Assembly (NCBI RefSeq): GCF_000970285.1 | Contig: NZ_CP009516.1 | Span: 1,777,036-1,841,035 of the forward strand | Direction: 5' to 3' | Source of the DNA: Methanosarcina horonobensis HB-1 = JCM 15518 | GTDB lineage: Archaea > Halobacteriota > Methanosarcinia > Methanosarcinales > Methanosarcinaceae | DNA: 64,000 nucleotides | Notes under the pieces: model-generated | The model's database searches: none | Told to the model about the DNA's origin: nothing | Seen by the model: only the letters and a program-made list of their open reading frames with translations | Shown here: one piece after another, positions 14,316-34,775 of the stretch | Layout: the number at the start of each line of letters is the position of its first letter | Numbering within the stretch: the stretch's first letter is position 1 | Translations under genes and position numbers: made by a program

Positions 14316-14564
14316 TAAAAGGACCTTCTTCTAATTTGTAAAACCATTTTTTAGATTCGAATATTGCTATGAACTACCCTGTTCTTGCTATACCTACTCG
14401 TGCCATGCATCTGCATGTCATAATATGTTAAGTAATCTTATGAGTAATATAAAATGTTTGAAAAAATCCTTCTGTACTGTGACCCTTCCCACATATAAAT
14501 ATTGTTGAGTGAACCGCTTGGGGTGGGAAGGGGAGTAAATTTAGTGGGTTCGAATTATATTCAT
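14316..14564. other. left flank of the casposon
   Basis: No gene. It contains an archaeal TATA-like ATATAAATA at 14493-14501 and an inverted repeat CCCTTCCCAC (14483-14492) / GTGGGAAGGG (14523-14532). A T-loop-like GGTTCGAAT follows at 14548-14556, just before the casposon target site. Casposons are known to use 3' ends of tRNA genes, and this looks like a tRNA remnant or mimic, but no complete cloverleaf can be drawn. Confidence 0.45.
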
Positions 14565-14578
14565 CGCACTAAAATAGA
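14565..14578. repeat. 14-bp target-site duplication, left copy
   Basis: CGCACTAAAATAGA is repeated exactly at 25232-25245. Casposons generate duplications of 14-15 bp. The copy lies directly outside the left inverted repeat, which opens with GGG. Confidence 0.88.
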
Positions 14579-14639
14579 GGGTAATAGGTAACTCAAATTT
14601 TTTGTACGCCATTGCAAGAAATATGCACAACCGTTTTTT
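14579..14639 (+). repeat. casposon A left terminal inverted repeat
   Basis: Begins GGGTAATAGGTAACTC and continues through a T-run to GTACGC. Its reverse complement aligns with 25171-25231, closely for 31 bp and roughly two thirds identical for 30 bp more. Confidence 0.88.
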
Positions 14640-14765
14640 AGGATGTAGCCTTAACTCAAAAATACAAGTAACTTCTTTAATGCAAATTTAAATAAAAACT
14701 CAGGTTTTTAATATTTTTAGTCTGAATAATAGGTAATTGCATTTACTTTTTCCAAAAGGTTTCCG

Positions 14766-15557: not shown

Positions 15558-15853
15558 GGTATCGATTTTGGTACTCGCATCATTGCTTTTAGGTATACAA
15601 ATCGCCTCATGAAATTAGTCAGTTAAAAACACCATTTAAAAAGTGTTATTATATCTTTTATACATTTGGTTAAGAGTCTAATATGCGAACATTGCCTTCT
15701 TAACTTTGATTTTAAGTAAACTATCTAGTTAGTTTATATTCTATAAATTTTGTAATTATTTTTGGAATAAGAACCTGAAAAAATTGATACATGGATTTTG
15801 TCATAAAAGCTATGATTAAAAAATAAGAAATATAGAAATAGTTAGGTTTGATT

Positions 15854-16978
15854 TTATTGAGACGCTTTACTGTCTACATTAAACAATTCTTTAAATTTCG
15901 TAGGATCAAAATTAATTATTTCTAACATTTCTTCTTCAAATAAAAACGATAATACATATTCACAAAAGAAATTATAAATGGAACGATATTCTTCGTTTTG
16001 ATCTTGTATATTGTCTAGTTGACGATTAATCTTTTCCAATGTGCTTTCGATTACTTCTACAGAATAATGATTTTCAGATTCCTTTTCTTTCAATAATTCA
16101 TTTTGGATAGATTCTCTGAGAGACTCAAGGTTTTTGATACTTTGGTCTAAAGTTGTTGTGTCTCCTAATCTGAAACAAGTTTTCAATACAATATCTGTAA
16201 CATAAGTAGCTACTGATATGTTTTTATTCTTTTTTTCAGTTTCATAGCATTTAGACTTAAAATTTTCATAACTAACTTCATCAAGTAATAAATTTCTAAA
16301 CGTTTCATTCATCGTGGTTGGCTTTCTAAACTTAGGTCTAATTATTGAGCTGTATGCATAGCCTAAAATTTTGTCCCTCTTCGTTGCCTCAATATTATCC
16401 ATAATTTTAAAGAAAGAATCCAGCTTAAAAATATGTAAATCTTTAATATATAGTAGATGATTTGGATGCATAATGTTTATAAACGAAAAATCGTACCCAA
16501 TGTTATATTTTTTTAATAACAGTGAATGTCCTTGCGTAACTTTCTCTAAATCTTTTTTTTCCCAATATTTAATTTTAAATGGAGGTCTGTTCTCACGAAC
16601 ATAATCATCTAGAGAATTCTTACATTGGTTAGATAAGAAATTTGAAGCTATGATTAGTACTCTATCAGGTCTTTTAGAAGTCGCCCAACTCAATACGCCT
16701 TGAATTTTTTCAGGTGGAACCCCTGTTTTATAATGTTTACATTCAACAAACCACTTTTCAATTATTAATTCCCCATCTACTACATCTTCAAGTACTCTTT
16801 CGCACTCAATATCCCTTCCTTGATCAGAAGGACTAGAAGCGTGCCCTGTTCCTTTTCTCCAATTTACATTTCTAAAGCCTAAGCATTCTAACAATTCAAA
16901 ACAAAACTCTTCAAACTGAGTTGAATTTAAATGATCAAAAGAAAATTTATTTTCATAATTAATCTCTAATTGTTGCAT
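15854..16978 (-). CDS. Mrr-type restriction endonuclease-like protein
   Basis: 374 residues. The N-terminal 150 form a PD-(D/E)XK nuclease domain: a helix FDHLNSTQFEEFCFELL, the acidic residue D56 in QGRDIE, and E79-C-K81 in VECKHYK, followed by IQGVLSWA and a strand DRVLIIASN. This is the Mrr/Holliday-resolvase-like arrangement used by modification-dependent restriction enzymes. The C-terminal half is helical and rich in Lys and Glu with no recognised domain; it may sense the target. A ~300-bp gap separates it from the NDT-like gene. Cargo of casposon A, probably defensive. Confidence 0.7.
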   Translation of the reverse strand: MQQLEINYENKFSFDHLNSTQFEEFCFELLECLGFRNVNWRKGTGHASSPSDQGRDIECERVLEDVVDGELIIEKWFVECKHYKTGVPPEKIQGVLSWATSKRPDRVLIIASNFLSNQCKNSLDDYVRENRPPFKIKYWEKKDLEKVTQGHSLLLKKYNIGYDFSFINIMHPNHLLYIKDLHIFKLDSFFKIMDNIEATKRDKILGYAYSSIIRPKFRKPTTMNETFRNLLLDEVSYENFKSKCYETEKKNKNISVATYVTDIVLKTCFRLGDTTTLDQSIKNLESLRESIQNELLKEKESENHYSVEVIESTLEKINRQLDNIQDQNEEYRSIYNFFCEYVLSFLFEEEMLEIINFDPTKFKELFNVDSKASQ

Positions 16979-17138
16979 AATTAGAATTAAGTGTCAAGAG
17001 TTAAATAACCTGTTAAAAGTTTTAGAAAGCTTCCTACCGAAATTTGAACTATAAAAAAACTGATTTTACAAAATATGTAAAATTAACCATATTTTACTAC
17101 TCTTTTATGCCTTTTTTATACCATCTTTTACTATTTTC

Positions 17139-17214
17139 TGTAAAATTTACATTTTACCTGTAAAATTTACAGTCTTTCCTGATACTGTTTTACAATTTTA
17201 CTGTAAAATTTACA
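17139..17214. promoter_or_regulatory. iterated TGTAAA-N-TTTACA near-palindromes 3' of cas1
   Basis: Three copies of TGTAAAATTTACA start at 17139, 17159 and 17202, with further partial copies at about 17068-17090 and 17225-17245 (TTTTACATTTTACAGTAAAA). The same kind of sequence lies beside the cas1 fragment at 28785-28835. They could be binding sites for the element's own HTH, RHH or Cas1 protein, an origin-like iteron set, or a bidirectional terminator. Confidence 0.5.
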
Positions 17215-17257
17215 TTTTCTACTTTTTTTACATTTTACAGTAAAAATATACACATTT

Positions 17258-18475
17258 TTACTTTTGACTTGAAACCAACGCTTCCCACTTATTCACCCTT
17301 TCCAGAACATGAGCATTAAGAGTAAATGGCTTATCTGACTTGGCGTTCTGTTTCATATAATGTAAAGTGCCTTTGGAAAACCCTAATTTCTTCCAGTCAA
17401 CATAAGAAATATTGAGTATCTTTTGTCTTATTTCATAGGAATCAATTCTCTCAATTTCATACTCAGGCTTAACAAAGTCCAGTTTCTCCTTTTTGCTAGT
17501 AAGATAATGGGTTAACTCTCTTACCTTCAAAAAGATAACATAACTCCAAGTGCTTTCTTTCCCCTGGTAACTTACCTTTTTGTTCAGCATATTGGAAAAC
17601 TCATTAACAATTTTCCTTGCTCCTGTAGGTTTCAGCCTCAAATTGTAATTTTCTGTTCTTATGAAATCCTTACTTTCCATAGCTCCGCTTTCAACCAGGC
17701 TAATTACTGCCAGATCAACAAGGAACCTGAAAGGCTCCTGAAGGTCATAGGCTAAACTGTTCTTGCTTGGAGTCATTTCATGCAAAAACCCTACATGAGC
17801 ATCCAGACCTACAGTGTTTATGGCTCTTAAACACTCAGCCTCAAGGAGAGAATAGCCATAATTGAGCATAGTGTTTACTATATCTCCTGAACCCATAGCT
17901 CTTCTGAACTGGTCTATCCTGTTACAGAAATCATATTCCTTTGGAACAGCTTTAGAGAACTCAATCCAGTATTTACCGGCTAAGGTTCCCTCTACTCCCA
18001 AAATTTCCCTGGTGCTCTTTACTTCTCTTAACTTTGTGAGTCCATCCGAAATATCAAATTTAATTTCAGGATATCTTTGGCTAAGGAAATCAAGCACGGC
18101 TTTAGATTTATCGAATTTAGCCTCAATAAACTTCTTTGCTATCTCAAGCCTTGCTTCCTTATCCTCAAAAGCATGATACTGAGAAAACTTTGTTCTTAGA
18201 TTTGTACTTTCAGGAGGAAGCATTGTGGTTAAAAGTTTGCCGTTCCAGTCTAAGATAGAAACTTGGACATTATGCTTAATAAGCCATCTAATAGCCTCTA
18301 AGGTAAGGTTCCCACTCTTACCATAGATGATAATGCCGTCAATATCAATCCTTTTAGGAGAAAATACATATTCTTGAGGCTCTTCAGTAGTTGAAAATCT
18401 TCCTTCTTTAACATGGAGCCTGGCTCCATCAACATGCATATTTATGCCGTGTCCATTCAAAAGAAGAAGCTTCAT
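17258..18475 (-). CDS. cas1: Cas1 family integrase (casposase)
   Basis: 405 residues. An N-terminal beta domain (MKLLLLNGHGINMHVDG.., GIIIYGKSGNLTLEAIRWL) is followed by the helical catalytic domain. Conserved metal ligands are visible: E162 in VEGTLAGKYW, H232 in GFLHEM and E247 in YDLQEPFRFLVD, with D244 beside it. In casposons this protein cuts and joins the terminal inverted repeats to a target with a 14-15 bp duplication. The ~60 residues after the Cas1 fold (EYEIERIDSYEIRQ... LGFSKGTLHYMKQNA) look like an added HTH, a known casposase feature. ATG overlaps the stop of the upstream wHTH gene (ATGA), so the two are co-translated. No cas2 and no CRISPR array nearby. Confidence 0.95.
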   Translation of the reverse strand: MKLLLLNGHGINMHVDGARLHVKEGRFSTTEEPQEYVFSPKRIDIDGIIIYGKSGNLTLEAIRWLIKHNVQVSILDWNGKLLTTMLPPESTNLRTKFSQYHAFEDKEARLEIAKKFIEAKFDKSKAVLDFLSQRYPEIKFDISDGLTKLREVKSTREILGVEGTLAGKYWIEFSKAVPKEYDFCNRIDQFRRAMGSGDIVNTMLNYGYSLLEAECLRAINTVGLDAHVGFLHEMTPSKNSLAYDLQEPFRFLVDLAVISLVESGAMESKDFIRTENYNLRLKPTGARKIVNEFSNMLNKKVSYQGKESTWSYVIFLKVRELTHYLTSKKEKLDFVKPEYEIERIDSYEIRQKILNISYVDWKKLGFSKGTLHYMKQNAKSDKPFTLNAHVLERVNKWEALVSSQK

Positions 18476-19377
18476 TTGAAATCAACCTCTTTTTCTCCTT
18501 TTGTATATGGATTTTCATGTAACCCCAAATTAATTAGAGCATCAGTCCTGATATTGGAAACAAACTGTGAAGCGTTTTCTTTTCCTTCAATTGCTAACTC
18601 TTCCTCTAATTTGTATAGTTCCTCTCTGTGTTCCTCAATAAGATTGGCTGTATATTCTGTATTGTAAACATTTTCTATAGAAGAAAGATCTTTTAGGATT
18701 CTTGCATCTTCCATAAACCTATCAATTACGGCTTTATGCCCATAATGCCCAAGAAGATAGATAATGTGAGTTCTAAGGTTTACATGGGTTGAAACAGGAA
18801 CAGGATATTTCTCTAGCAATTTTACTAACAGGTCAATTGTTTTTGTTTTATTGGTTGGCTCAATACCTTTTTTCAAAATATATCTGTCTAATAAAAGTAA
18901 TAGCTTATCAGCAAGCTCATTATCTATAGTTCCTACATCAATGTTCTTATCAAACTGAGATACCACTAGATCCAATTGTTTTGGGGTTAAAACATAAGTT
19001 TGTTCATAACGGGCAATCTCTTTTAAAGCCATTTTTTGCTTTATGGACTCTTCTGAATCAAGCCTTTCTAAAATCTTATCCATATGCTCCGTTATTTTGG
19101 ATATATTTTTCAAGGTCAGATAACTGGCGTTTTTATCAGTATCCTCTATTCCTAATTTCCCAAAATCAGAATATTCTAGGCGTATAATCATACCTTGTTT
19201 CTTTAGGTTGTCTAATTTACGGTTTATACTCTTGAGGCTGTACCCAAGTTCATTTTTATGCTTTTTCATCAGGTCTTCGATGAGTTGTTTCCTTCTTGCA
19301 TATCCTTTTTGTGTAAGATACTGCTTTACCTCAGTTTCAAAGTCTCTTTGTGTCACAAATAATACTCTCTTTTTCAT
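18472..19377 (-). CDS. winged-helix DNA-binding protein of the casposon
   Basis: 301 residues. Residues ~25-75 (ARRKQLIEDLMKKHKNELGY, SLKSINRKLDNLKKQGMIIRLEY) form a winged helix-turn-helix. The remainder is helical and leucine-rich with no recognised domain. It is the first gene of a two-gene operon with cas1 and overlaps it by 4 bp. It faces the RHH-HNH-PolB operon across a ~105-bp divergent promoter region. Probable regulator of the element or accessory to excision; HTH genes beside cas1 are usual in family 2 casposons. Confidence 0.75.
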   Translation of the reverse strand: MKKRVLFVTQRDFETEVKQYLTQKGYARRKQLIEDLMKKHKNELGYSLKSINRKLDNLKKQGMIIRLEYSDFGKLGIEDTDKNASYLTLKNISKITEHMDKILERLDSEESIKQKMALKEIARYEQTYVLTPKQLDLVVSQFDKNIDVGTIDNELADKLLLLLDRYILKKGIEPTNKTKTIDLLVKLLEKYPVPVSTHVNLRTHIIYLLGHYGHKAVIDRFMEDARILKDLSSIENVYNTEYTANLIEEHREELYKLEEELAIEGKENASQFVSNIRTDALINLGLHENPYTKGEKEVDFK

Positions 19378-19482
19378 GTGTTTTACTCAAGTATATACAA
19401 AATATATGTCAAACTTATACTTAAAGTTATACTCAATTCTGTACATAAGTGTGATAGGGCGTATTATATGTTGTGATAAAAA
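19378..19482. promoter_or_regulatory. divergent promoter/operator region of the casposon
   Basis: About 105 AT-rich bp between the two casposon operons. It contains TTATACTTAA and TTATACTCAA as direct repeats 11 bp apart (19420-19440) and an inverted relative CTCAAGTATA at 19386-19395. This arrangement suits binding by the RHH or wHTH protein encoded on either side; that is inference. Confidence 0.5.
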
Positions 19483-19623
19483 GTGACTGAAAAAAATCGT
19501 GTTTTAATTACACTGTCTCCTTACCTTAAGGAGAAACTTAAACAGAAAGCAGAAGAATACGGATGCTCTCAGGCTGAAGTTATGAGAACAGCTTTTATCA
19601 GAATGATGGAGGCTGAAAGATGA
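19483..19623 (+). CDS. small ribbon-helix-helix protein
   Basis: A 46-residue protein starting at GTG 19483: a short strand (RVLITLSPYL), then helix (KEKLKQKAEEYGC) and helix (SQAEVMRTAFIRMMEAER). This is the complete CopG/MetJ-type ribbon-helix-helix fold, which binds DNA as a dimer. Its TGA overlaps the ATG of the next gene (ATGA), so it heads the rightward operon. Likely autoregulator of the casposon replication genes. Confidence 0.7.
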   Translation: MTEKNRVLITLSPYLKEKLKQKAEEYGCSQAEVMRTAFIRMMEAER

Positions 19624-20258
19624 GCCGACCAAGATTTTCCAAAGACTACAGGACTTATGGAGAATGGCTCAAGGCTCAGCCCAGGGATACAAAATATGCT
19701 AAGGAAATCATCAGGAAACACAAGTTTTTCCCTGATAAAAGCCTCAGCCAGCTTAGAAACCTAAAGATAGGGGATTTTGACCTTAGCCAGACAGCCTGGA
19801 AAACTCTTTCAGCCCAGGATAAGAGAGATAGAAACCTATCTCTCCAAATTTTAAGGGAAATGAGAAAAGGAGAAAATCTTTCTTCTATACTTGAAAAGAT
19901 AGGCAAAAGGACAGAATTTGCAGTCAAGCATCTTGGAAAGAACCTGCATAAGTCAGAAGGAACCTGGAAGGTTACAAAAACAGACACTATCCAGGCTGAA
20001 ATGCTGATTTACTCCACAGAAGGACAAAAAACGATTATTACAGCCAGTTCTAAGGATAGGTCTTTAATTGCAGAATATCATGCCAATGTTCAGAAGGCAA
20101 TAAAAAACAATGATCCTTCAGTTCTTGCCAAATTTAAGGATATTCAAATAGTGGATGCTAAAGGCAAAGTCCACCACTTTGAAACCGACCTTGATAAGCT
20201 CTATGAGATCCTGGAAGCCCAGGAAGAGCCAGAGTTTTTGGAAATTTATCAGCACTGA
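19620..20258 (+). CDS. conserved casposon protein of unknown function
   Basis: 212 residues, basic in its N-terminal half (MSRPRFSKDYRTYGEWLKAQ, RKHKFFPDKSLSQLRNL) and acidic at the C terminus. The pattern KFFPDKSLSQLRNLK suggests a DNA-binding helical segment, but no family is recognised. It is translationally coupled to the RHH gene by an ATGA overlap. Its TGA is followed in the same frame by the HNH gene after only 12 bases, so the two could once have been, or elsewhere be, one protein. Confidence 0.6.
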   Translation: MSRPRFSKDYRTYGEWLKAQPRDTKYAKEIIRKHKFFPDKSLSQLRNLKIGDFDLSQTAWKTLSAQDKRDRNLSLQILREMRKGENLSSILEKIGKRTEFAVKHLGKNLHKSEGTWKVTKTDTIQAEMLIYSTEGQKTIITASSKDRSLIAEYHANVQKAIKNNDPSVLAKFKDIQIVDAKGKVHHFETDLDKLYEILEAQEEPEFLEIYQH

Positions 20259-20270
20259 GGAGGTGAAACT

Positions 20271-20603
20271 ATAGACAAAGAAACCTATCAAAAAACTTTG
20301 AACAAACAGAAGAGAAAAGGAAAACCTTCTCTTTGCTGTATTGTCTGTGGGGAGGATGACCCAGAAGTTATTGAAATGCATCATGTCTATGGAAGGAGCA
20401 ATTCAGATCAGGTTAAGCCTCTCTGCAAAAACTGCCATTCCAAGGTAACAAAGGAACAGAATAAATTTAACCCAAAAGCCAGATCTGGAAATGCCTCTTC
20501 TGAGCAAAAGAGAGCTTTTCAGATTGTATCTATTGGTGCCTTGCTTACAGAATTAGGAACTCAGCTAATTGATCTTGGAAATGAGATGGTGCAAAATGTC
20601 TAA
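20271..20603 (+). CDS. HNH endonuclease of the casposon (possible ATA start)
   Basis: 110 residues with the zinc-bound HNH layout: CCIVCG (C-x2-C), EMHHVYGRS (the HH of the motif) and PLCKNCHSKVT (C-x2-C-H), then a helical tail. HNH nucleases are standard in casposons, probably for DNA processing. No ATG, GTG or TTG lies near the ribosome binding site. A perfect GGAGGTGA (20259-20266) is followed 4 bases later by ATA at 20271. The first conventional codon, TTG at 20298, is 31 bases from the site. I therefore propose ATA, a rare start codon. The gene overlaps the polB start by 8 bp. Confidence 0.8.
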   Translation: MDKETYQKTLNKQKRKGKPSLCCIVCGEDDPEVIEMHHVYGRSNSDQVKPLCKNCHSKVTKEQNKFNPKARSGNASSEQKRAFQIVSIGALLTELGTQLIDLGNEMVQNV

Positions 20604-23295
20604 AGTTGCAGTCAGGGGATATACTCAGAGGCTTGAGAAAAAAGGAGAGTATAGGAGCTTTAGGCGTTATGATACTCCTCTCAGGCATAACAGGGTACTG
20701 GTCTTTGATACTGAAACCACAACCGACCAGTATCAAAATTTTAAGATAGGATACTTCCAGATCTACCAGGATGGAGTTATTCAGCATGATGGTTTATTCT
20801 ATGATCCATCTACCCTGAACGAAAGAGAAATAAAGACTCTGGAAGCCTATTCAAGAAAACATGACATAAGCCTGTATTCCCTGGGTAAGTTCATAGACAA
20901 TGTGTTTTATCCTGAAGTCTTTGAGCTTAAAACCCTCTGCAATGGGTATAACTTGGCTTTTGACATAAGCAGGATAGCCAAAAAATCAGGAGATTCAAGG
21001 GTAAAGAATAGAGGGGGCTTTACTCTTACCCTCTCAGATGACCCTTTCAACCCTCCTATAATAGTCAAAAAGCTTGGATACTCTAACAGCTTCAAGTTTA
21101 CCACTACTAAGCAGAACAAAGGAGAGAGCTACTTCTCAGGCTATTTCCTGGATACTCAAAGATTAGCTGAAGTTCTCCTTCAGTCAAACCATATTTCCCT
21201 TGAGAAAGCAGGAGAGAAGCTTAACACACCTGTTCAGAAGATGAAAGGGATTGAACATGGGAAGGTTACTGAAAAGTACATTGATTATCTAGTAAAGGAT
21301 GTTGAAACTACCCAGGCTGTATATGAGAAGCTTGTTAAGGAGCTTGATGTTTATCAGATTCACATACCCATAACAAAGATCTTTAGTGAGGCTTCTATTG
21401 GAAAACATTCTCTTGAGCAAATGGGGATTAAGCCATTCTTGGAAATGAATCCAGATTTTCCAGATTCGATTATTGGAAACATGATGACTTCTTATTTTGG
21501 AGGAAGAACAGAATGTAAAATCAGGAAGGAGCCAATAAAGGTAACAGTTCTTGATTTTACAAGCATGTACCCTACAGTTACAATGTTAATGAACCTCTGG
21601 AAATACATCATAGCTGAAAGCCTGGAAATTCAGGACATAACCGAGGAGGTTAGGATATTTGTTTCAAAACTGAAGCTTTCAGACCTTCAGAAACCGGATA
21701 CATGGAAAAAGCTTGTTGTTATGGTTAGGATTCAGCCAGATAATGACATTTTGCCTGTAAGGATGGATTACAAAGGAAATAATACAGGCTTTAACGTAGG
21801 AATCAATTATCTGAGTTCTAAGTCTGAGATGTGGTATTCTTTACCGGATGTTATAGGCTCATATCTCCTTACCGGCAAGGTTCCAAAGATTATAGAAGCC
21901 GTGAAATTTGTTCCTAAAGGAGTACAGAAGAACTTAAGGAAATCCAGGGTTCTTGGAATTGATATTGATCCATTAAAGGATAATGTTGTTCAGGTTCTTG
22001 TAGAAGAGAGGCAGAGGATTAAGCAGGAATTGAAAAACACAGAGAGAAATGATCCTGAATATCAGCATTTATCAAGCAGAGCCCAGGCTATCAAGATTCT
22101 TGTAAATGCTCTGAGTTATGGAATCTTTATTGAGCTTAATCCCGAAGATAAGAAAAGCGAGTTTCAGGTTTATGGGCTTGAAAACTTTGTTACTAAGGAA
22201 AACAGGTTCGAGAAGTCAGGAAAGTATTTTCATCCTCTCCTAGCTGTTATGATTACGTCAGGAGCCAGGCTTTTCTTAACAATGGCTGAAGCCAGATTAA
22301 AAGAGCTTGGGGCAATTCACGCTTATATGGATACTGATTCTGTGTTTGTACCTCCTGATAAGGCTCAGGAGCTTGTAGAGTTCTTTCAGCCTCTTAACCC
22401 CTATAACATTGATATTCCATTGCTTAAACCTGAGAAAAAAGATCTCTGGTTTTATGGAATTGCTTCTAAAAGGTATGCTCTGTACTATTATGAAGATAGA
22501 AAAATCAGGTTCATGGAAGATGAAAGATCTTATAAGCTTCATGGGCTTGGACATTTAACAAACCCTTTCCCTAACTCAGTTGAAGATTGGCAGGGTGAAA
22601 TCTGGCAGGATATTCTTAAACTGCATTATGGGCTGATTACTGAAAGGGATATTGGAGAGAAGTATTCAAACCTTTATGCAATTTCCAAGCTTACTGTCAG
22701 CACTTCCAATGTATTGAACAGGTTTAAGAAACTGAATGATGGGAAGCCTTGGAAAGAGCAAATTAAGCCTTTTAACTTCTTTCTTGTAGGGTTCCAGGCA
22801 ATTGAAGAAAATGAGAAGGCTGTTAAGCCTCTGGCTCCATTTACCAAAGATTATCAGAAGATTGTCTATGAGCCATTTATTGATTATGAAAAAGGAGAAG
22901 TTAAGGAAGGATCTCAGTATTTCAAACCATTGAGCAGAACAATTTTGCAGTATATTGAGCATCTTGAAAACAAGTTTGATGGAGATATAGGAGTTTTAAA
23001 GAGGAAATATATTCAGGCTGATGGTCTTGTTTACATTGGGAAAGAAGCAAATAATATTGAGGATCAGCCTTTAGATGTTACTGGGGCTCAAGGTTTTATT
23101 AATGAGGAAGAGACAATAAACTTTATTTTGACTCTGATCCCTGAAAAAGCCCGAAAAATAGGTATTAAGCACCGGAGTGAACTAAAATATCTGAAAGAAA
23201 AAGCAAGAGAGAGAAAGCTAAATTTTAATACTACCAATATGCAAAAAATTCTGAAATATTATAGCTCTCAAGGATTGAATACTGAAGCTAAATAG
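20596..23295 (+). CDS. polB: family B DNA polymerase of the casposon
   Basis: 899 residues, a protein-primed-like or short archaeal PolB of the type carried by casposons. Exonuclease motifs: D38-T-E40 in VLVFDTETT, NLAFDISRIA (ExoII) and YLVKDVETTQAVY (ExoIII). Polymerase motifs: D320-FTSMYPT (A), K500-ILVNALSYG (B) and Y577-M-DTDS (C). All catalytic acids are present, so it should be active with proofreading. I prefer ATG 20596 over the upstream frame start at 20569 because homologous-looking sequence begins at MSKVAVRGYT. It ends with TAG followed at once by TAA, a backup stop in a lineage where UAG can be read as pyrrolysine. Confidence 0.93.
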   Translation: MSKVAVRGYTQRLEKKGEYRSFRRYDTPLRHNRVLVFDTETTTDQYQNFKIGYFQIYQDGVIQHDGLFYDPSTLNEREIKTLEAYSRKHDISLYSLGKFIDNVFYPEVFELKTLCNGYNLAFDISRIAKKSGDSRVKNRGGFTLTLSDDPFNPPIIVKKLGYSNSFKFTTTKQNKGESYFSGYFLDTQRLAEVLLQSNHISLEKAGEKLNTPVQKMKGIEHGKVTEKYIDYLVKDVETTQAVYEKLVKELDVYQIHIPITKIFSEASIGKHSLEQMGIKPFLEMNPDFPDSIIGNMMTSYFGGRTECKIRKEPIKVTVLDFTSMYPTVTMLMNLWKYIIAESLEIQDITEEVRIFVSKLKLSDLQKPDTWKKLVVMVRIQPDNDILPVRMDYKGNNTGFNVGINYLSSKSEMWYSLPDVIGSYLLTGKVPKIIEAVKFVPKGVQKNLRKSRVLGIDIDPLKDNVVQVLVEERQRIKQELKNTERNDPEYQHLSSRAQAIKILVNALSYGIFIELNPEDKKSEFQVYGLENFVTKENRFEKSGKYFHPLLAVMITSGARLFLTMAEARLKELGAIHAYMDTDSVFVPPDKAQELVEFFQPLNPYNIDIPLLKPEKKDLWFYGIASKRYALYYYEDRKIRFMEDERSYKLHGLGHLTNPFPNSVEDWQGEIWQDILKLHYGLITERDIGEKYSNLYAISKLTVSTSNVLNRFKKLNDGKPWKEQIKPFNFFLVGFQAIEENEKAVKPLAPFTKDYQKIVYEPFIDYEKGEVKEGSQYFKPLSRTILQYIEHLENKFDGDIGVLKRKYIQADGLVYIGKEANNIEDQPLDVTGAQGFINEEETINFILTLIPEKARKIGIKHRSELKYLKEKARERKLNFNTTNMQKILKYYSSQGLNTEAK

Positions 23296-23676
23296 TAACC
23301 CCGTCTTCCTAGATAAAATTAGAACCTCCATAGTAGTAAAACTCAGAAACATCAGCGTTTTCCACTAAGATTAAAGACGGTTATTGTGGTTTTCATTAGA
23401 ATGCCTAAATTTCCCTATCTGACGTATTAAGTAAACTAAGATTGCCTCTTTCCTAACTTATTAGTTCAGTGATCTAAACTCATTATCTTTTTTGGAAATT
23501 ACTCCTCGTTTAAGTATGTTTTAACATTGAAAATAGGCTTTATACGTCTTTTTGACACACACGAGTTTATCATTAAATTACATAAAAAAAATACAATTTC
23601 GTTAATTTATTTAGTAAGTTATATATAGTAGCTATATGAACCTTAGTTTAAAACAAAGAATTAAAGAGATTTAAAC
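23296..23676. other. intergenic within casposon A
   Basis: 380 bp, AT-rich, without a gene. A strong AT block with a TTATATATAG stretch at 23620-23629 may be the promoter of the following membrane protein gene. Confidence 0.4.
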
Positions 23677-24321
23677 ATGCAGGATATGCCAAAAAACGAA
23701 CCTGAGTTTAAAGAAGATATTTTGCAAATAATACTCAATGAGTCAAGAGACCTGAGAAACCAGCAACTTGAACATTTATTTCAAACTTCAGAAAACATAT
23801 GGGGCAGTTTGAATTTGTTACTGGTTCTCTTGGGAATTTACGCTTCTGTATTTCTTTTTTTATGTGATTTTAATAATGTACATCTTATGTCAAACAAAAT
23901 AATTACTTGTCCTTTAATTATTAGTGTGTTGTTTATATTATTCGCTATAGTTAGGGCTATAATTGGAATTTTTCCAACTAATAAATTTAGAGTTCCTACT
24001 CCAAATGCAATCTATGAATTACTTGCTGAAGAGAAAGAAATAATATTGGAAAAATTTACTCAAACATACTTATTAGGGTATGGAAGTATCATAATTAGTG
24101 CTGAAGAGCGTAATTCTCTTAGAAAAGAGATAATTATGGTAGCATTAGCCTCAATCGTTGAGTTTATATTTTTCGTTTCAGCTTTAATTTTGAAAAATCT
24201 AACTATAATGTTTGTTACAATATCCATAATTTTTGTTATATTATTTGTGGTGTTTATGATAGGTTTTATAGAAAGTGAGGGCAAAAGAATAGAAATGCTA
24301 CAGGAAGATATGAATTCATGA
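23677..24321 (+). CDS. four-helix membrane protein, casposon cargo
   Basis: 214 residues: a charged N-terminal helix (residues 1-42), two membrane helices (about 48-66 and 76-98), a ~50-residue soluble loop, two more membrane helices (about 152-170 and 174-194) and a short charged tail. The 2+2 helix plan with a cytoplasmic loop resembles small effector membrane proteins of defence systems, but no family signature can be named. It is separated from polB by 380 bp and is followed after 35 bp by the tiny PKLP genes, which may belong with it. Confidence 0.5.
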   Translation: MQDMPKNEPEFKEDILQIILNESRDLRNQQLEHLFQTSENIWGSLNLLLVLLGIYASVFLFLCDFNNVHLMSNKIITCPLIISVLFILFAIVRAIIGIFPTNKFRVPTPNAIYELLAEEKEIILEKFTQTYLLGYGSIIISAEERNSLRKEIIMVALASIVEFIFFVSALILKNLTIMFVTISIIFVILFVVFMIGFIESEGKRIEMLQEDMNS

Positions 24322-24356
24322 ATTAATTTGTTTGTTTATAAGAAGGAGGTTTGAAC

Positions 24357-24497
24357 TTGGTTAGAGAAACTAAAAATTTGGATAAGGAAAATAAAAATAG
24401 AGAAATACCGAAACTTCCGGAAGAAGAACCTATAAGAAGCATATGGATACAGAAAGGTGGTTCTAATAATGACAGGAAAAATAACAAGGAAAAGTGA
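24357..24497 (+). CDS. tiny charged protein 1 with PKLPEEEPIR motif
   Basis: A 46-residue frame starting at TTG 24357 with AGGAGGT 7 bases upstream. The centre reads IPKLPEEEPIRSIWIQKGG and the rest is Lys, Asn and Glu, so it is probably unfolded alone. The motif PKLPxxEPhK recurs in the next frames (24469 and 24792). It overlaps the second gene by 29 bp in another frame. Unknown family; the strong RBS and repeated motif argue for real translation. Confidence 0.5.
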   Translation: MVRETKNLDKENKNREIPKLPEEEPIRSIWIQKGGSNNDRKNNKEK

Positions 24498-24618
24498 AAT
24501 GTATGAAATAAAAGAAAAGCCAAAACTACCAGAGAAGGAACCTTTAAAAATGAAAGATATTCAATTATCTGAGAACCCAAAAAAAGAACTAAAAAAAAGT
24601 CCAAAGAAAAACTCATAA
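24469..24618 (+). CDS. tiny charged protein 2 with PKLPEKEPLK motif
   Basis: 49 residues from ATG 24469, with GGTGG 8 bases upstream. It contains KEKPKLPEKEPLKMKDIQLSE and a very basic tail (PKKELKKSPKKNS). It shares the PKLPxxEPhK core with its neighbours. Just after its stop, another frame continues with a related but degenerate copy (24619-24740). Confidence 0.5.
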   Translation: MTGKITRKSEMYEIKEKPKLPEKEPLKMKDIQLSENPKKELKKSPKKNS

Positions 24619-24740
24619 AAAGCACATCAGTTCAAAAAACAAATTATAATAACGCCAAAAGATGAGATAAAAGAAAAGCCAAAAATTACCATAAAAGTCT
24701 TTAAAAATAGTAACCCAAATGAGAATAAAGTGTTGACATA
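24619..24740 (+). pseudogene. degenerate PKLP copies
   Basis: Two overlapping broken frames. One ends in STSVQKTNYNNAKR at a TGA (24663-24665), comparable with the C terminus of protein 3. The other begins EIKEKPK and loses the motif through a one-base change in phase (compare GAAATAAAAGAAAAGCC in protein 2 with GAGATAAAAGAAAAGCC here). They look like decayed members of the same tandem family. Confidence 0.4.
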
Positions 24741-24791
24741 GGCACAATCTATCAGATATACAGAAATTGAAAGAGATATAGAGGTAATATC

Positions 24792-24917
24792 TTGAGTGAC
24801 ACGAAAGCCCCAAAAAAGACTACTCCTAAATTGCCAGACAAAGAGCCTATAAAAACAGTAAATTTACAAGCAAACAGGAAAGTAACAAAAAAATCCACTG
24901 GTAACGTTAAAAGATAA
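24792..24917 (+). CDS. tiny charged protein 3 with PKLPDKEPIK motif
   Basis: 41 residues from TTG 24792, with GAGGTAA upstream. It reads TTPKLPDKEPIKTVNLQANRK in the middle and has a basic tail. Same core motif as proteins 1 and 2. It is the last gene before the right TIR of casposon A. Confidence 0.5.
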   Translation: MSDTKAPKKTTPKLPDKEPIKTVNLQANRKVTKKSTGNVKR

Positions 24918-25170
24918 TTTCCTATCATTCGGATTTCTATAAATTATCAAACAAACTCACCCAAACAATGTAAAAATATTCCTAATTAGTGATTGTCTCT
25001 GAAAAAACTCACATGATATTCTTCGAATAACATGCCCAAACAATGAAAATACTTGAAAGCACTTTCATGCTAAATAGATTTTTCAGAAGTCTTGCAGAGA
25101 TATAGAATAAATTTAATTTTTTATTAATAAAGGTTATAGAAATCTATTTTTTGGTTAAAGCAATTTTATG

Positions 25171-25231
25171 AAAAAATGGTACTGCAATTATCTTACAGTT
25201 GCGTACAAAAAATTCGAGTTACCTATATCCC
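25171..25231 (-). repeat. casposon A right terminal inverted repeat
   Basis: Read inward on the minus strand it begins GGGATATAGGTAACTCG and reaches GTACGC after the same T-run as the left end. Only three of the first 31 positions differ, and weaker similarity continues to about 61 bp. Confidence 0.88.
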
Positions 25232-25245
25232 CGCACTAAAATAGA
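25232..25245. repeat. 14-bp target-site duplication, right copy of A and left flank of B
   Basis: CGCACTAAAATAGA is identical to 14565-14578. It is followed directly by GGG and a second left-type TIR, so this single copy serves as the right flank of casposon A and the left flank of casposon B. Confidence 0.88.
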
Positions 25246-25307
25246 GGGAATATATACAACGCTAAAAAAGTGTACGCTATTGAAAAATATCTACATCGCC
25301 GTTTTCT
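25246..25307 (+). repeat. casposon B left terminal inverted repeat
   Basis: Reads GGGAATATATAC...GTGTACGCTATTGAAAAATAT...CCGTTTTC. It aligns in direct orientation with 14579-14640, with the same GGG start, GTACGC and CCGTTTT landmarks. Similarity is lower than between the two ends of A, so B is a different or older element. Confidence 0.75.
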
Positions 25308-25656
25308 AAAAAGTTATCCTTAATAAAAATTAATTAATTTCTATAATATTTGTTCAAAAGAGTTGACTCATTTTAATTCATCGTTCAGTTGTCTTTTAAG
25401 TTTATTATCAAAGAAAATAGTTCAAAATTTTTATTAGTCAAAGGTTCTGCACATTCCCCTGGGCAAGATAAAAATCCAAAGTTTTATTTGACTATAGTAT
25501 GCTTTTTTAAAGGTGTTTTAGTTTAAATGCTAAGGTGTTAATTTTCATGAAATCATAAATCTAAAGGAGTTACTAGATTAAACTCTAGTTGAAATTAAAA
25601 GCAAAAAATGTTATGAGCTACTTAAAAAAGTTTGCAAGCAGCAAAGGAGCAGATAA

Positions 25657-28602
25657 ATGTCTGAAGATGCGATTCTGAGGTTACACCAAACAGGTCTATT
25701 TAATAAGCTTCTTGAGAAAGAGAATGAAGAGAAAAAAAGTACTTCAATAGAAGATCATGAAATCTCACAAAATATAATTTCAGTTGTTCGCAAAGCTGCT
25801 CCTTTGTTAGAAAGAATTCCAATAAACATGCCTGAATTCACATTACATAACGCTAATCATAGTATACATGTAATTAAAAATATAGAAGATTTAATACCTC
25901 CAGAGACTCTTGAACAATTAAACGCTGTTGAAATTTCCATACTTATTTACGCTGCGTATCTTCACGACATAGGAATGATCTCTTCTTCTGATGAGCGGAA
26001 GCAGATTGTTAAAACTAATGAATTTAAGAAGCTTTTAAACTCAAATGAAGAATTATATGAAAAGCTTGAGAAAGCGAAAAACAATGGCGATTATCAAGCA
26101 GTACTTGAAATTGAAAACAAAGCATTTACTGATTTTCTTCGAAAAAATCACGTTGAACATGCACACAAAATAATCAAAGAATATGAATTGGACTCTGAAA
26201 TCTCATGGAAAGGCACTTCATACTATAAATGGGTAAAGGCAGTATGCGACAGTCATGGACTTCCAGTAAAAGAGCTAAAGAAGAATGATAATTGGCCAAT
26301 TGATGTTTTAGTACGAAATAAGCCAGTGAATGTTCAGTATTTATCTCTTATATTACGACTAGCTGATATATTGGATCTCGATTCCGAAAGAACACCAAAG
26401 CGTTTATTCTATCATATAAATCCAAAGGATAAAATCAGCATTCAAGAGTGGGAAAAACATCTTTCCATTACTGGATTTCGGATTGGACCTGAAGAAATCA
26501 AAGTTGAAGCTGAATGTAAAAGTCCAAACTGCGAACGTGTACTTAGAAAATTTATAAAAGATATTGATAAAGAACTCGAAGAAAGCAATTATTTGATTTC
26601 GAGTTATAGAGCTGATTTCGCTAAATATAGATTAAATCTTTCTGAGTCAGTTAATGTACGAATCCATTCTATTGGTTATGAATACCGTGATTTCCGTTTC
26701 GAACTTGATTATCGTCGAGTCCTCGACTTACTGATGGGAGAAGGACTATATGGAAATCCGGTTGTAGCACTTAGAGAGCTTCTACAAAACTCTGTAGATG
26801 CTGTACGTTATAGAGAATCTCTAGAGAAAAGAGAAGGAAATGGTTATCGCCCTAGCATAGAAGTCTCTTTGACAAATGACGAATTAATTGTTGAAGATAA
26901 TGGCATCGGAATGGATGAGGAGATATTTAAAAATTATTTCATGAAAGTTGGTAGAAGTTATTATCAAAGCTCAGATTTTCGTGAAAAAAATGTGGACATA
27001 GATCCTGTAAGCGAATTTGGAATCGGTATTTTATCAGTTTTTATGGTTGCCGATAAGTTTACCGTTGAGAGTAGAAGAAAAACTTTTGAAGATGAGCTCA
27101 ATCCATACATATCAATATATTTTGAAATCCCAACAGCTTATGACTATTTTGTAAAACGGCAATCTAAACGTTCTAAGTATGGAACGAAAATAATTTTGAA
27201 CTTAAAATCTGATCATCCATTTTCTCCCTCATCACTAATTGAAAAAATATCAGAAATTGCTCCTTTTATTGAATATCAAATAAAGGTTAAAACAAATGAT
27301 GAAACAAAAATCTATGAACCTCTTTTACCAGGTGAAATATATGGAGATACCTCTAACATAAAAACTTATTATGACATTACTTTTAATGAATTGGATAAAT
27401 CTGAGGGGATAGAAGGTACAATGAAAGTTGTAAGGACTTCTAGAGAAAGAAAACATCTGATCGCTCAACGGGGTTTCTCAATTCCTCTTGACAAACTATT
27501 ACCCCCTTGGTTATCCAATAGTCTCCTGATGTCAATAAATATTTCAGGTCAAACAAAATTATCACTATCTCCAAACAGATCAAATATAATTGAAGATGAA
27601 AAATACCATGAGTTAATTGAAAAAATACAATTGAGATTATTAGATGAACTCGAAAATAGCTTGAAGACATATAGAGATTCGAATACATTTGAAAAATATA
27701 TTAAATATGTTGATGAATTAATAGATGACAATTTTTTTAGTACTTATAGACATGATCCGCCTTTTGGATCCGATTATGAGGAAGATAAGAGAATAGAATT
27801 AATGACAAAAATCATCCTCAATAACGTTCCTTTTCTAACGATTTCACGTGACGGAACACGTGCTTATAAATTAGTTAAAGACTTTAATAAGTTTTCAACA
27901 ATAGTAGTAACTTCAGAAATTTGGCCTGAAGAAATCCAAAACGAAAATGTTTTCGAAGAAATAAAACGTCTAATCGACCTAGATGTAATTGTTTTACTAG
28001 GTAGAGATCAGAATAGCATGAGGAAATACTACATGTTATGTGAAATTTTAGAGAATCCTTCTGACATCTATATTACATCTATACCTGGAGTCGTCGTCAA
28101 AACTTTTGTAAGTAACGATGATTTAAAAATGTATAGTATTAACTATAATATGTTCACATTTAAGATGTATAGTAAAACTGGAACCAAAGAACCGCTATTT
28201 GTTCATGATCCAGAAGATAATATTGATTCTGAAACAGTGATTTTTAATGCTAATCATCGATTATTGTATAGATTTTTTGATGGATGGGATCCAAGAGATG
28301 AAAATTGTCTTGAAGCGTTAAATTATCTGGGTAAACTCTTTTCCGATTTATTAATTAATATGGAGGCTGTAGCATTTTCAGCTTATAACACACGAGGGAT
28401 CAGATATAAGGAGGATATAAATTGCTCGTATATTGGAATACTCAAACATTATCCAGAAATATTTGAGTATTTCTGTAATGCAGTAGAGGAGTTTTGGAAA
28501 AATGCCCAAGATGTGGGAGCTATTTCTCATGGTGAGGAGTTTCCTGGTTTTAATGTGGATGACCTACCTTGGTTTTGGAACTATTGCAATGAGCAAACAT
28601 GA
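25657..28602 (+). CDS. HD-domain/Hsp90-type ATPase fusion, predicted defence cargo
   Basis: 981 residues. N-terminal HD phosphohydrolase-like domain: histidines in LHNANHSIHV (64-71) and H103-D104 in YLHDIGM, then HGLP and RLADILDLD. From about 345 comes a GHKL ATPase of Hsp90 type: E374/N378 in RELLQNSVDA, D414 in DNGIGMDEEI, and GIGILSVF at 455-462, followed by an Hsp90-like middle domain (RGFSIPLDKLLPPW, SLSPNRSNIIEDE). The last ~330 residues are unassigned. ATG at 25657 has AAAGGAG 7 bases before it. Such HD-Hsp90 proteins occur in microbial defence islands; the activity here is inferred. It occupies the same slot in B as the NDT/Mrr pair does in A. Confidence 0.75.
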   Translation: MSEDAILRLHQTGLFNKLLEKENEEKKSTSIEDHEISQNIISVVRKAAPLLERIPINMPEFTLHNANHSIHVIKNIEDLIPPETLEQLNAVEISILIYAAYLHDIGMISSSDERKQIVKTNEFKKLLNSNEELYEKLEKAKNNGDYQAVLEIENKAFTDFLRKNHVEHAHKIIKEYELDSEISWKGTSYYKWVKAVCDSHGLPVKELKKNDNWPIDVLVRNKPVNVQYLSLILRLADILDLDSERTPKRLFYHINPKDKISIQEWEKHLSITGFRIGPEEIKVEAECKSPNCERVLRKFIKDIDKELEESNYLISSYRADFAKYRLNLSESVNVRIHSIGYEYRDFRFELDYRRVLDLLMGEGLYGNPVVALRELLQNSVDAVRYRESLEKREGNGYRPSIEVSLTNDELIVEDNGIGMDEEIFKNYFMKVGRSYYQSSDFREKNVDIDPVSEFGIGILSVFMVADKFTVESRRKTFEDELNPYISIYFEIPTAYDYFVKRQSKRSKYGTKIILNLKSDHPFSPSSLIEKISEIAPFIEYQIKVKTNDETKIYEPLLPGEIYGDTSNIKTYYDITFNELDKSEGIEGTMKVVRTSRERKHLIAQRGFSIPLDKLLPPWLSNSLLMSINISGQTKLSLSPNRSNIIEDEKYHELIEKIQLRLLDELENSLKTYRDSNTFEKYIKYVDELIDDNFFSTYRHDPPFGSDYEEDKRIELMTKIILNNVPFLTISRDGTRAYKLVKDFNKFSTIVVTSEIWPEEIQNENVFEEIKRLIDLDVIVLLGRDQNSMRKYYMLCEILENPSDIYITSIPGVVVKTFVSNDDLKMYSINYNMFTFKMYSKTGTKEPLFVHDPEDNIDSETVIFNANHRLLYRFFDGWDPRDENCLEALNYLGKLFSDLLINMEAVAFSAYNTRGIRYKEDINCSYIGILKHYPEIFEYFCNAVEEFWKNAQDVGAISHGEEFPGFNVDDLPWFWNYCNEQT

Positions 28603-28845
28603 CATTGTATCCAAGAATTTGACGTTGAATTTATAGAGAAATTGGCATGTCCCATTTTAAATGAGTTAATGTCTTTATTATTAGTTCTTCAACCTTCTCC
28701 AATTTTGAACCATTTTACTGAATTTTACTAAGGGATGTAAAATTAATTAGATTTACAACTCTTTTATAGCCTCTCCTTAAGCCGTTTTACTATTTTACTG
28801 TAAATTTTACATTTTTTACATTTTACAGTAAAAACATACACATTT

Positions 28846-29399
28846 TTACTTTTGACCTGAAACCAATGCCTCCCACTTATTTACTCTTTCCAGAACATGT
28901 GCATTAAGAGTAAACGGTTTATCTGACTTGGCGTTCTGCTTCATATAATGCAAAGTACCTTTAGAAAACCCTAATTTCTTCCAGTCAACATAAGAAATGT
29001 TGAGGATCTTTTGTCTTATGGCATAAGAATCAATTCTCTCTATCTCATATTCAGGCTTAACAAAATCCAGTTTTTCCTTTTTGCTTGTGAGATAATGGGC
29101 TAATTCTCTAACCTTAAGGAAGATAACATAACTCCAAGTGCTTTCCTTTCCCTGGTAACTTACTTTTTTATTCAGCATATTGGAAAACTCATTAACAATT
29201 TTCCTTGCTCCTGTAGGTTTCAGTCTCAAATTGTAATTTTCTGTTCTTATGAAATCCTTACTTTCCATAGCTCCATTTTCAACCAAGCTGATAACTGCCA
29301 GATCCACAAGGAACCTGAAAGGCTCCTGAAGGTCATAGGCTAAGCTGTTCTTGCTTGGTGTCATTTCATGCAAAAACCCTACATGAGCATCCAGACCTA
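28846..29399 (-). pseudogene. cas1: cas1 3' fragment (casposon B)
   Basis: Encodes about the last 184 residues of a casposase nearly identical to 17258-18475, starting at GLDAHVGFLHEM. It keeps the catalytic H and E but lacks the N-terminal domain and the first catalytic glutamate, so it cannot work alone. The downstream 110 bp also match casposon A. Identity to A ends after CCAGACCTA, where the complete gene continues CAGTG and this copy continues into the palindrome ATAACTCGAGTTAT. Confidence 0.9.
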
Positions 29400-29412
29400 T
29401 AACTCGAGTTAT
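29399..29412. repeat. 14-bp perfect palindrome at the cas1 breakpoint
   Basis: ATAACTCGAGTTAT is a perfect inverted repeat lying exactly where similarity to the intact cas1 ends. It may be the deletion scar or the entry point of another element. Confidence 0.7.
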
Positions 29413-30008
29413 ATGCAAAATCAAATTGTGGGCGGCCACTCACCCTAAAGAATGTGGTATTCTTCAGGTCGCCCGCTCGGTTAGTCTGGTACTTATAATT
29501 TGTTAATTCTCCTATGCTTAGATTTCTTTAATTTATATGTTGAACGTCTGTTTTTGGTATTACCCGTGCCTCCTTAATGTAATGCTTGGTTGCGTCAACA
29601 GTAACAAAACCATACTTTACAAAGAAGCTATAGTTTAGAGATTTAAATGAAAAAAGAAGCGAAAGTTCACTTCTGCCCCGACTTAAATGACCGGGTATTC
29701 GTGACCCTCCGCACTTCCCGTAATAATATAGAAATTTCTTAAGATCCAGTATTATATTCCCATACTCCTTATTTTTTAGGTTGTAACACTGAGAACAGTA
29801 TTATATGAATTTATAATGTTATCATGTTTTAATCAAAAAAATAAAGCTTTATCAAGCTTTAAACTCAAATTCGGATTTTTATTTAATCTTCTGAAAATAA
29901 GTATGTTTATATAGTAATTTATCCTGTAGTTTTTGAGTAAATTTATTCTGTAATTTTTGATTATGGGTGTTCCCGGATCAAAATATGGAAAAAACAGGAG
30001 AAAATAAC
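29413..30008. other. intergenic right of casposon B, with nested hairpin
   Basis: No gene. At 29430-29474 a nested hairpin can form: outer GGGCGGCC/GGTCGCCC arms enclosing AAGAAT-GTGGT-ATTCTT. Hairpins of this kind occur at ends of IS200/IS605-type elements, but no tnpA or tnpB is present. The rest is AT-rich up to the promoter of the PKD protein. Confidence 0.4.
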
Positions 30009-30437
30009 ATGAAAAGTAATGGAAAGTTTATATGGAAAATAACACTGTCTGTTTTCACCATATTAATGATGTTGACTTTATTGTCTACAGCAGCCTCTGC
30101 ATCAGTTACTATATACAAAACTCCCCTTGGTGCAGGAACTCCTCCAGCAACAGAACGCCTATCCGGCGGGGGTAATTCCATTGATTATACGGCTGTAGCC
30201 GCTTCGAGTACTGATCCGAGAATAGTACAATTCAAGGATCTATCTAAAGGTACAGAGACATATATCAGATGGGACTTTGGAGATGGAACCTATCTCGAGG
30301 GAACAAAAATTACTCCACAACTAAAAAATCCGGTACACAAGTATGCAAAAACTGGTTATTATATTAGTTGTCTGACTATCAAATGCAGTGGTTATAATGG
30401 AAAGTTGTGGGTTCATAAGACTCTTGTTATTAAATAA
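30009..30437 (+). CDS. small secreted PKD-domain protein
   Basis: 142 residues from ATG 30009 (AGGAG 8 bases upstream); the frame is open to 29967 but without a better RBS. It has a signal peptide (FIWKITLSVFTILMMLTLLS, cut near ASA) and a single PKD immunoglobulin-like domain with the diagnostic ETYIRWDFGDGTYLEG and HKYAKTGYYISCLTI. PKD domains are frequent on Methanosarcina surface proteins and mediate adhesion or spacing. No anchor is visible, so it is probably secreted. Confidence 0.78.
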   Translation: MKSNGKFIWKITLSVFTILMMLTLLSTAASASVTIYKTPLGAGTPPATERLSGGGNSIDYTAVAASSTDPRIVQFKDLSKGTETYIRWDFGDGTYLEGTKITPQLKNPVHKYAKTGYYISCLTIKCSGYNGKLWVHKTLVIK

Positions 30438-33160: not shown

Positions 33161-34279
33161 TTAATTTAGTCCTATTTGAGTATTATTAATTACATTGGTA
33201 ACTACATTGACTACCGTAATTATATATACAGTTGAGTTATTATTTTTCCATTCCAGTCCGGGTACATTGTTCATATTTTCAGCCATTTCTTTTACTTTGT
33301 CTATATTCTCAGATATCTCTGTCATATTATCCATTTTTTGATCCAGTTTTTTTATTTCTTCTATGTCTTCAGATATATCTGTAATATTATCCGGAATTTC
33401 AGGCATCTCAGTCATATTATCCGTGTTTTTGATTAAAATCATGTTTCCAATCACGTTGCATTTCATTGGTTCGGCCATTGTACTCATGTTTCCGACCATT
33501 GTTGTCACATTGATCATGTCTTCAGCCGTTCCAGCCGTATTACCAATGTTCTTGATTTTAATCATTTTTTTAGTCATATTACCTGTTATGATCCCAGTCA
33601 TATTTCCCTTCATGAGCACAGTCATGTTGCTCGTGTTCTCTGTCATGTTAGCCATATTTTCTGTCATATTGCACGTTATGTTTCCGGTCATATTTCCCTT
33701 CATGAGCACAGTCATGTTGCTCGTGTTCTCTGTCATGTTAGCCATATTTTCTGTCATATTGCACGTTATGTTTCCGGTCATATTTCCCTTCATGAGCACA
33801 GTCATGTAGTCTATTTTTCCTTCCATTCCCGTCATATTGACAACTTTTCCGTCTATCTCAGCTTTGTCCGTTTTTCCGACTATAACCACTTTTCCAGGCA
33901 TATCATCTATTTTCCCTATCATTACCATGCTTTCAGTTCTGTTGACCACGTCTTCGATTATAGTTAACTCTCCGGTTACGTTACATGTCATGAGTTTGGT
34001 CACATTTTCCGTTTTTCCGGTAGCGTTTGCAGTTTGGGTTTCGATAAGGTTTCTAATTCTATTTTTAGTCCGGTTATCAGTCATGTTTTCAGTCATATTG
34101 CCCGATGTACCGACTACAAATGCGTTTCCGGTCACGTTACACATGACTGTTTTATCTATATCTTCAGTCGCGACCATATACATATTATTCGAATTCTCAG
34201 TCGTGGTAGTTTGTGCCTGTACGGGTACAGCAGACAAAGCTATGTATATCGCTAGTAGAGAAACCATTACTTTCCTCAT
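33161..34279 (-). CDS. secreted Asn-Met-Thr repeat surface protein
   Basis: 372 residues from ATG 34279, which has GGGGGG 6 bases upstream; the frame is open further but the signal peptide starts here (MRKVMVSLLAIYIALS, cut after VQAQ). The body is almost entirely N-M-T, N-V-T and N-I-T units, giving dozens of N-glycosylation sequons. It includes a 30-residue unit (MTVLMKGNMTGNITCNMTEN...) repeated exactly from 90-bp DNA repeats. The C terminus is hydrophobic (TVYIITVVNVVTNVI), possibly a weak anchor. Likely a heavily glycosylated coat protein; no relative recognised. Confidence 0.65.
   Translation of the reverse strand: MRKVMVSLLAIYIALSAVPVQAQTTTTENSNNMYMVATEDIDKTVMCNVTGNAFVVGTSGNMTENMTDNRTKNRIRNLIETQTANATGKTENVTKLMTCNVTGELTIIEDVVNRTESMVMIGKIDDMPGKVVIVGKTDKAEIDGKVVNMTGMEGKIDYMTVLMKGNMTGNITCNMTENMANMTENTSNMTVLMKGNMTGNITCNMTENMANMTENTSNMTVLMKGNMTGIITGNMTKKMIKIKNIGNTAGTAEDMINVTTMVGNMSTMAEPMKCNVIGNMILIKNTDNMTEMPEIPDNITDISEDIEEIKKLDQKMDNMTEISENIDKVKEMAENMNNVPGLEWKNNNSTVYIITVVNVVTNVINNTQIGLN
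33601..33807. repeat. exact 90-bp tandem repeats inside the Asn-Met-Thr gene
   Basis: Units begin at 33601, 33691 and 33781 (TATTTCCCTTCATGAGCACA). The first two are identical over 90 bp and the third is partial. Perfect identity means recent duplication or ongoing homogenisation. Confidence 0.85.
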
Positions 34280-34775
34280 TACTTTCCCCCCGGTATTCGA
34301 ATTTACGCATTGAATGAGTAGATATGCCAAATAAATTAAAATCAGTTTTATAATCTCCATGGAATTATTTTCTTCCTATTTTATAATTAGTTAATCATAA
34401 TTAACTGAAATCCTACTTCCCGAATTAAAATTCATTTTTTCATAATTTTTTCTGATATCTATCCCTGATTAAACATGAATTTATTGAACTTCTATGAGAT
34501 AGTTTAAAACGACTAGATGCGACATCTACATCAGGATAAAGAATCTTGTTTCAGCCAGGTACACGGCTCCTTAGAAAAGCCATTATTTTGTTTGTATCAT
34601 TGAAGCCCATACAGCACCCTTTATCTGCCTGTCATCCTGAATATCTCTCTTAATCCCAACGATATTAAATACAGATATGGCTTTAATTGGAGCCGATGAG
34701 CCGGGAAAAAGTCGTCCCTCCTCGGGTTTTAAATTTCTCCCGGCTCAGAAGTGTTCAGCACACTGGCGCCTGAAT
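34280..34775. other. intergenic between divergently oriented blocks
   Basis: No gene. TTTTGTTTGTATCATTGAAGC at 34586-34606 repeats a sequence at 32989-33009, so these spacers share another dispersed element. Confidence 0.4.

Follow-up and report, generated by a model that had tools for sequence, protein, structure and literature searches.

The question raised by this locus is whether the sequence behind an intact casposon is a second casposon, inserted at the target of the first and having one target copy in common with it, or a chance resemblance next to displaced cas1 sequence. An earlier note on this DNA, made from the letters alone, had proposed head-to-tail stacking, with each insertion adding a repeat.

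Casposon A, its target and the leader

The window (the whole 64-kb stretch of DNA that was analysed, part of a Methanosarcina chromosome of 5.02 Mb) contains two copies of the 14-bp target CGCACTAAAATAGA, at 14565–14578 (+) and 25232–25245 (+), which bracket the intact casposon A (14579–25231, +; 10 653 bp). These are the only copies in the window, even with up to two mismatches allowed, and the 16-mer consisting of the target and the next GG occurs twice in the whole genome. The repeat is 14 bp long. Each terminal repeat opens with the GGG that follows the target, which makes the left-end positions given in the earlier note, 14579 and 25246, exact. Casposon A has the defining features of its class: a cas1-solo gene and a family B polymerase gene lie inside terminal inverted repeats and the target is duplicated. 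From the left end (GGGTAATAGGTAACTC...) the order is Mrr-like and TIR-effector-like cargo, cas1 (17258–18475, −; 405 aa), a protein in the HTH position, an ORF in the HNH position, PolB (20569–23295; 908 aa) and the right end, which reads, inverted, GGGATATAGGTAACTC...; the cargo is placed between the left end and cas1. The Cas1 protein carries a C-terminal extension past the Pfam domain, and a homologous gene set is present in the M. mazei-type genome G008. The ORFs in the HNH and HTH positions gave no Pfam match. Elsewhere in the window, diverged direct repeats at 8576–12661 include a 1.9-kb gene pair with 82% identity, and a short-period repeat (33555–33807) is located within the ORF at 33161–34360.

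Directly 5′ of the first target copy is a tRNA-like 'leader', GGGTTCGAAT-N9 (14546–14564, +), a motif that is common throughout the genus. A pattern of GGGTTCGAAT, nine nucleotides, CGCA and then, ten bases on, a GGGATATAGG-type end, with up to three mismatches, had ∼48 occurrences, spread over 21 of the 31 genus genomes, many of them at tRNA 3′ ends; the reversed control pattern gave no matches in the same set. ARAGORN detected no tRNA gene in the window, and the target here is intergenic and only mimics a tRNA. The genus-wide pattern agrees with the reports that the M. mazei casposase requires CGCA and bases 12–17 upstream (PMC6977970) and that a leader motif is recognised by its A. boonei counterpart (PMC6614799). 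The right end of A (25210–25231) reads TTCGAGTTACCTATATCCC before CGCA and resembles the TTCGAAT leader motif with a 3-bp offset; with TTCGAG at −19, this end might itself act as a leader.

Casposon B, a left-end stub

The second target copy serves as the right copy of A and the left copy of casposon B, the left terminal repeat of which (25246–25347, +) starts with GGGAATATATACAACGCTAAAAAAGTGTACGC immediately 3′ of it. This sequence was compared with 17 casposon ends from other loci, gathered by the rule CGCA-N10-GGG, using 1000 dinucleotide shuffles as the null. The mean score was 27.4, compared with 16.0 ± 1.0 for the shuffles (maximum 20.7), and when the 17 ends were run across the entire window only 25246 (+) and the two ends of A stood out, the latter scoring higher. 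BLAST against other ends gave E values of 4e-12 to 8e-15, with some alignments including the common target. The best partner of the B end, with an 85–88% match, is GGGATATATACAAGGCTGAAAAAGTGTACGCTG in G008, a stacked end that lies behind a complete casposon and the same kind of 14-bp target; stacked ends of G010 and G020 are also matched. Identity to the left end of A is only ∼70%. A casposon terminal repeat thus adjoins a casposase target, and the casposon end–target–casposon end junction of a tandem array is present around the second target copy; the left-type repeat claimed at 25246 is borne out.

The interior of B retains one gene and part of another. The cargo gene (25657–28602, +) is intact and encodes a 981-aa protein with HD-CE and Hsp90-like ATPase domains (Pfam HD-CE, 2e-56; HATPase_c_3, 2e-9), which is predicted to be of conflict or defence type. 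Homologues with 53–64% identity occur in seven other genus genomes; no casposon was found within the ∼1.5 kb of flank examined around these Hsp90-type homologues, and a search for a casposon relative carrying this cargo found none. Behind the cargo, a cas1 3′ flank (28717–28845, −) is homologous to that of A (79% identity between 28717–28815 and 17059–17155) and is followed by a cas1 stump (28846–29399, −) corresponding to reference codons ∼222–405. The stump comprises only the last ∼184 codons; it is open, with no frameshift or stop, and lacks the N-terminal half. As the earlier note stated, it has the same orientation as cas1 of A: nucleotides 28763–29399 are 90.4% identical to 17166–17811 over 646 bp, and the protein translated from 28846–29439 matches Pfam Cas_Cas1 (203–282 of 283) with an E value of 1e-19. 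A and B have left end, cargo and cas1 3′ end in identical order, and homology between the two is limited to the ends, the cas1 3′ flank and cas1. Palindromic TTTTACTGTAAAA-type units are repeated in both flanks (17010–17257 and 28717–28845) and likewise in G025 and G001; they are possibly regulator sites, terminators or recombination points.

At its right side B ends abruptly. Similarity to cas1 runs out at 29399, at a probable deletion junction where a host-gene piece of 29 bp (29392–29420, +) is fused to cas1 with an overlap of ACCT. This piece is identical at 24 of 29 positions to a gene in G001, with similar sequences in G004 and G028 and weaker ones in G018 and G012; we take the gene to be of the DUF3795 type. 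In G001, G004 and others it lies downstream of the same left-flank gene as here. The remnant of a multi-copy IS-like repeat follows (29416–29734), with copies elsewhere in the genus and many per genome; the query pieces 18–206 and 204–335 sit ∼400 bp apart in other copies. The right flank is a host PKD-type gene (29967–30437, +) that is present in most genus genomes; in G020, 194 bp separate it from the left flank. No right end of B and no third target copy was found downstream in the window. B therefore has neither two terminal repeats nor two target copies of its own, and its cas1 is partial and polB is absent; it is the remnant of a casposon reduced to a left-end stub and not a working element. 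A single deletion best accounts for the missing right half, last target copy and host-gene portion. The repeat that each insertion was said to add is seen at A, which is flanked by two copies; that of B would have been lost with its right half.

Stacked elements and remnants in Methanosarcina

Further end–target–end junctions were found in G008, G010 (two), G011 and G020 (three), with no matches to the reversed control pattern. A collection-wide scan for stacked junctions returned Methanosarcina, Methanococcoides and Methanolobus records along with many unrelated chance bacterial matches. Each of the five gene-bearing arrays (the window, G008, G010, G020 C29 and G020 C30) has its more complete element on the leader-proximal side, an outcome with a chance probability of ∼3%; it is intact in the first four, and in G020 C30 it is a divergent element with one in-frame stop in the polymerase and no detected cas1, with scraps behind it. 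This pattern fits growth on the leader side. The G008 array has a casposon with both the 31-nt end and the target (CGCATTAAGATTAT) published for MetMaz-C1, ahead of a B-type stub (G008:C1:1771000-1777000, L132) that consists of a left end, a 1643-aa NB-ARC protein and a cas1 3′ scrap. In G010 (C54:1-23090; L073/L074) three casposons are stacked behind tRNA-Leu, the third being inverted; the target between the second and third is CGCACTCTTCTTTT and the other two copies are CGCACTAAAGTTAT.

B is one of a set of similar remnants in which the cargo gene outlasts the mobility genes. A left end, one large intact ORF and a cas1 stump are found at eight loci (B, G001, G025, G013, G012, G018, G008 and G020), with a different cargo at each: serpin, transglutaminase-like, NB-ARC, AAA/AriA-like and others. 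Among the cas1 matches listed at at least 45% identity in the genus genomes, partial matches reach a mean depth of ∼50 over the last 50 codons and of less than one over the first 27, a bias that is indicative only, as some of the short, weakly similar matches may be other HTH proteins. Matches to cas1 (CRISPR cas1 included) occur in 27 genomes and to polB in 11. An element in G030 (L083, G030:C2:1880079-1883920) has both ends and both target copies around only a cas1 3′ piece, with no large ORF, and is possibly a non-autonomous, internally deleted casposon.

One of these remnants is a mosaic. The G025 element (L062) is 99.6% identical to a casposon with intact cas1 in G010 (L073), a different species, over the left end, the transglutaminase-type cargo and the cas1 flank; exactly at the cas1 stop codon the identity falls to ∼90%, and the G025 cas1 runs on into a degenerate stretch common to G024, G013 and G008 at that locus. 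The two G025 contigs, joined through ∼75 common bases, meet at the same host locus as B. Since cas1 would be expected to be the more conserved part, we read the mosaic as recombination, and this one case suggests that cargo can be exchanged at cas1 stumps.

History of the locus

Two elements share a 14-bp target here, and the second has a real casposon left end and, correctly placed behind it, a cas1 stump homologous to cas1 of A; its right side is lost. We consider it very probable that these are two casposons stacked at one target, as the earlier note proposed, and that B was later cut by a deletion before an IS-like element entered. Cas1 (the casposase) would have inserted two family-2-type casposons at one tRNA-mimicking intergenic target, as the target and ends indicate, to give the order leader–target–A–target–B. 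A single deletion, probably at the 4-bp microhomology ACCT, would then have removed the 5′ half of B's cas1, the polymerase, the right end, the last target and the beginning of the adjoining host gene. The left end, the cargo gene and the cas1 3′ stump would have been left, with the cargo presumably being what selection kept, and the IS-like element would have arrived later beside this stub.

Over their common codons the cas1 genes of A and B share 92% nucleotide identity, with a dN of 0.013 and a dS of 0.46, values that point to two separate arrivals of one sub-lineage rather than a recent duplication. In a tree of 19 cas1 sequences the two are nearest neighbours, with weak support (82/41). 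The stump has a single private amino-acid residue, a number similar to that of intact copies, and no frameshift or stop, so that its truncation appears to be recent. As for the suggestion that B is older or from another lineage, B is not a recent duplicate, but its cas1 is the closest sampled relative of that of A and its stump is clean; its end sub-type is also found in the M. mazei-type G008. A greater age for B would follow from position and not from decay: we infer that B preceded A because A is intact and leader-proximal, and the more complete element is leader-proximal in the other arrays too. The order cannot be read from position by itself, since a tandem insertion observed in vivo entered the copy called IS1a, apparently the leader-distal one to judge by the strand as printed (PMC10359463). 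Descent of B from the old remnant at the same locus in G008, G013, G024 and G025 was rejected, as the cas1 stumps there are broken or partly degenerate (seven frameshifts in G024) and that of B is clean; where seen, their cargo also differs from that of B. Selection on the stump as a working protein, to which a dN/dS of 0.02–0.03 in some stumps might point, was set aside; recent truncation is simpler, as other stumps have stops and frameshifts.

Other histories were weighed against stacking followed by deletion. That the similarity at 25246 arose by chance and the cas1 piece is unrelated scrap moved in otherwise could appeal to the AT-richness of the B end and its modest likeness to the left end of A, but is extremely improbable given a score ∼11 s.d. 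above the shuffles, a position directly after the target and the 85–88% agreement with the G008 stacked end. We also think it unlikely that B is a recombination product of an incoming casposon and a resident cas1 stump, with the left end and cargo from one and the stump from the other. The G025 mosaic at the same host locus and the heavy bias of stumps toward the cas1 3′ end favour such an origin; a plain deletion suffices, however, for the junction with the host-gene piece, and the search for B's cargo yielded no partner casposon for a breakpoint comparison.

The reverse order, in which A came first and B later entered its distal target copy with the right end of A replacing the leader, agrees with the apparent use of the leader-distal copy in vivo and with the TTCGAGTTACCTATATCCC that precedes CGCA at the end of A. 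It is nevertheless unlikely, as B is the broken element and in each of the five arrays degradation has gone further in the distal element.

Tandem casposons are already known in Methanosarcina, and the B locus is a further case. Tandem family 2 casposons of this genus were published earlier (Krupovic et al., 2016, as related in PMC6563490 and PMC9939771); as far as these accounts describe them, they are likewise head-to-tail elements parted only by the target duplication, with the target re-used, whereas at the present locus a stub with cargo takes the distal place and an intergenic tRNA mimic is the target. MetMaz-C1 of M. mazei Go1, with a 31-nt end (GGGATATAGGTAACTC...) and a 14-nt target containing CGCA, has the same end and target design, and it was a MetMaz-C1 mini-casposon that gave the tandem insertion in vivo (PMC10359463); in G008 a casposon of this type fronts the B-type stub with NB-ARC cargo. 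NitNF5-C1/C2 of Nitrosopumilus ef-2 are tandem family 1 casposons, two at one target (PMC6563490), and differ from the present pair in family and in having a protein-gene target. In the accessible casposon literature we found no description of the seven other stub loci, the completeness pattern of the five arrays or the mosaic at the cas1 stop codon.

The parallel with CRISPR arrays lies in Cas1 insertions at a repeat beside the leader, each of which makes another repeat copy; here, in contrast, whole 10-kb elements and a 14-bp repeat are involved, Cas2 is absent and the insertion order is presumed. The locus offers a clean natural example of Cas1-type stacking, which has been put forward as an intermediate stage between casposons and CRISPR arrays, and it has the sequence features by which the need for a leader and the order of insertion could be tested. 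From the survey it seems that a lone cargo gene and a cas1 stump can be what remains of a casposon, and that recombination may exchange such genes; casposon sites would then supply methanogens with defence-type genes. Tentatively, and with the odds somewhat against it, target sites may act as cargo depots: elements stack, right halves are lost, and the left end, cargo and stump persist, with the stump a docking site at which an incoming cas1 recombines and swaps cargo, so that mobility genes are shed and cargo, often of defence type, is exchanged.
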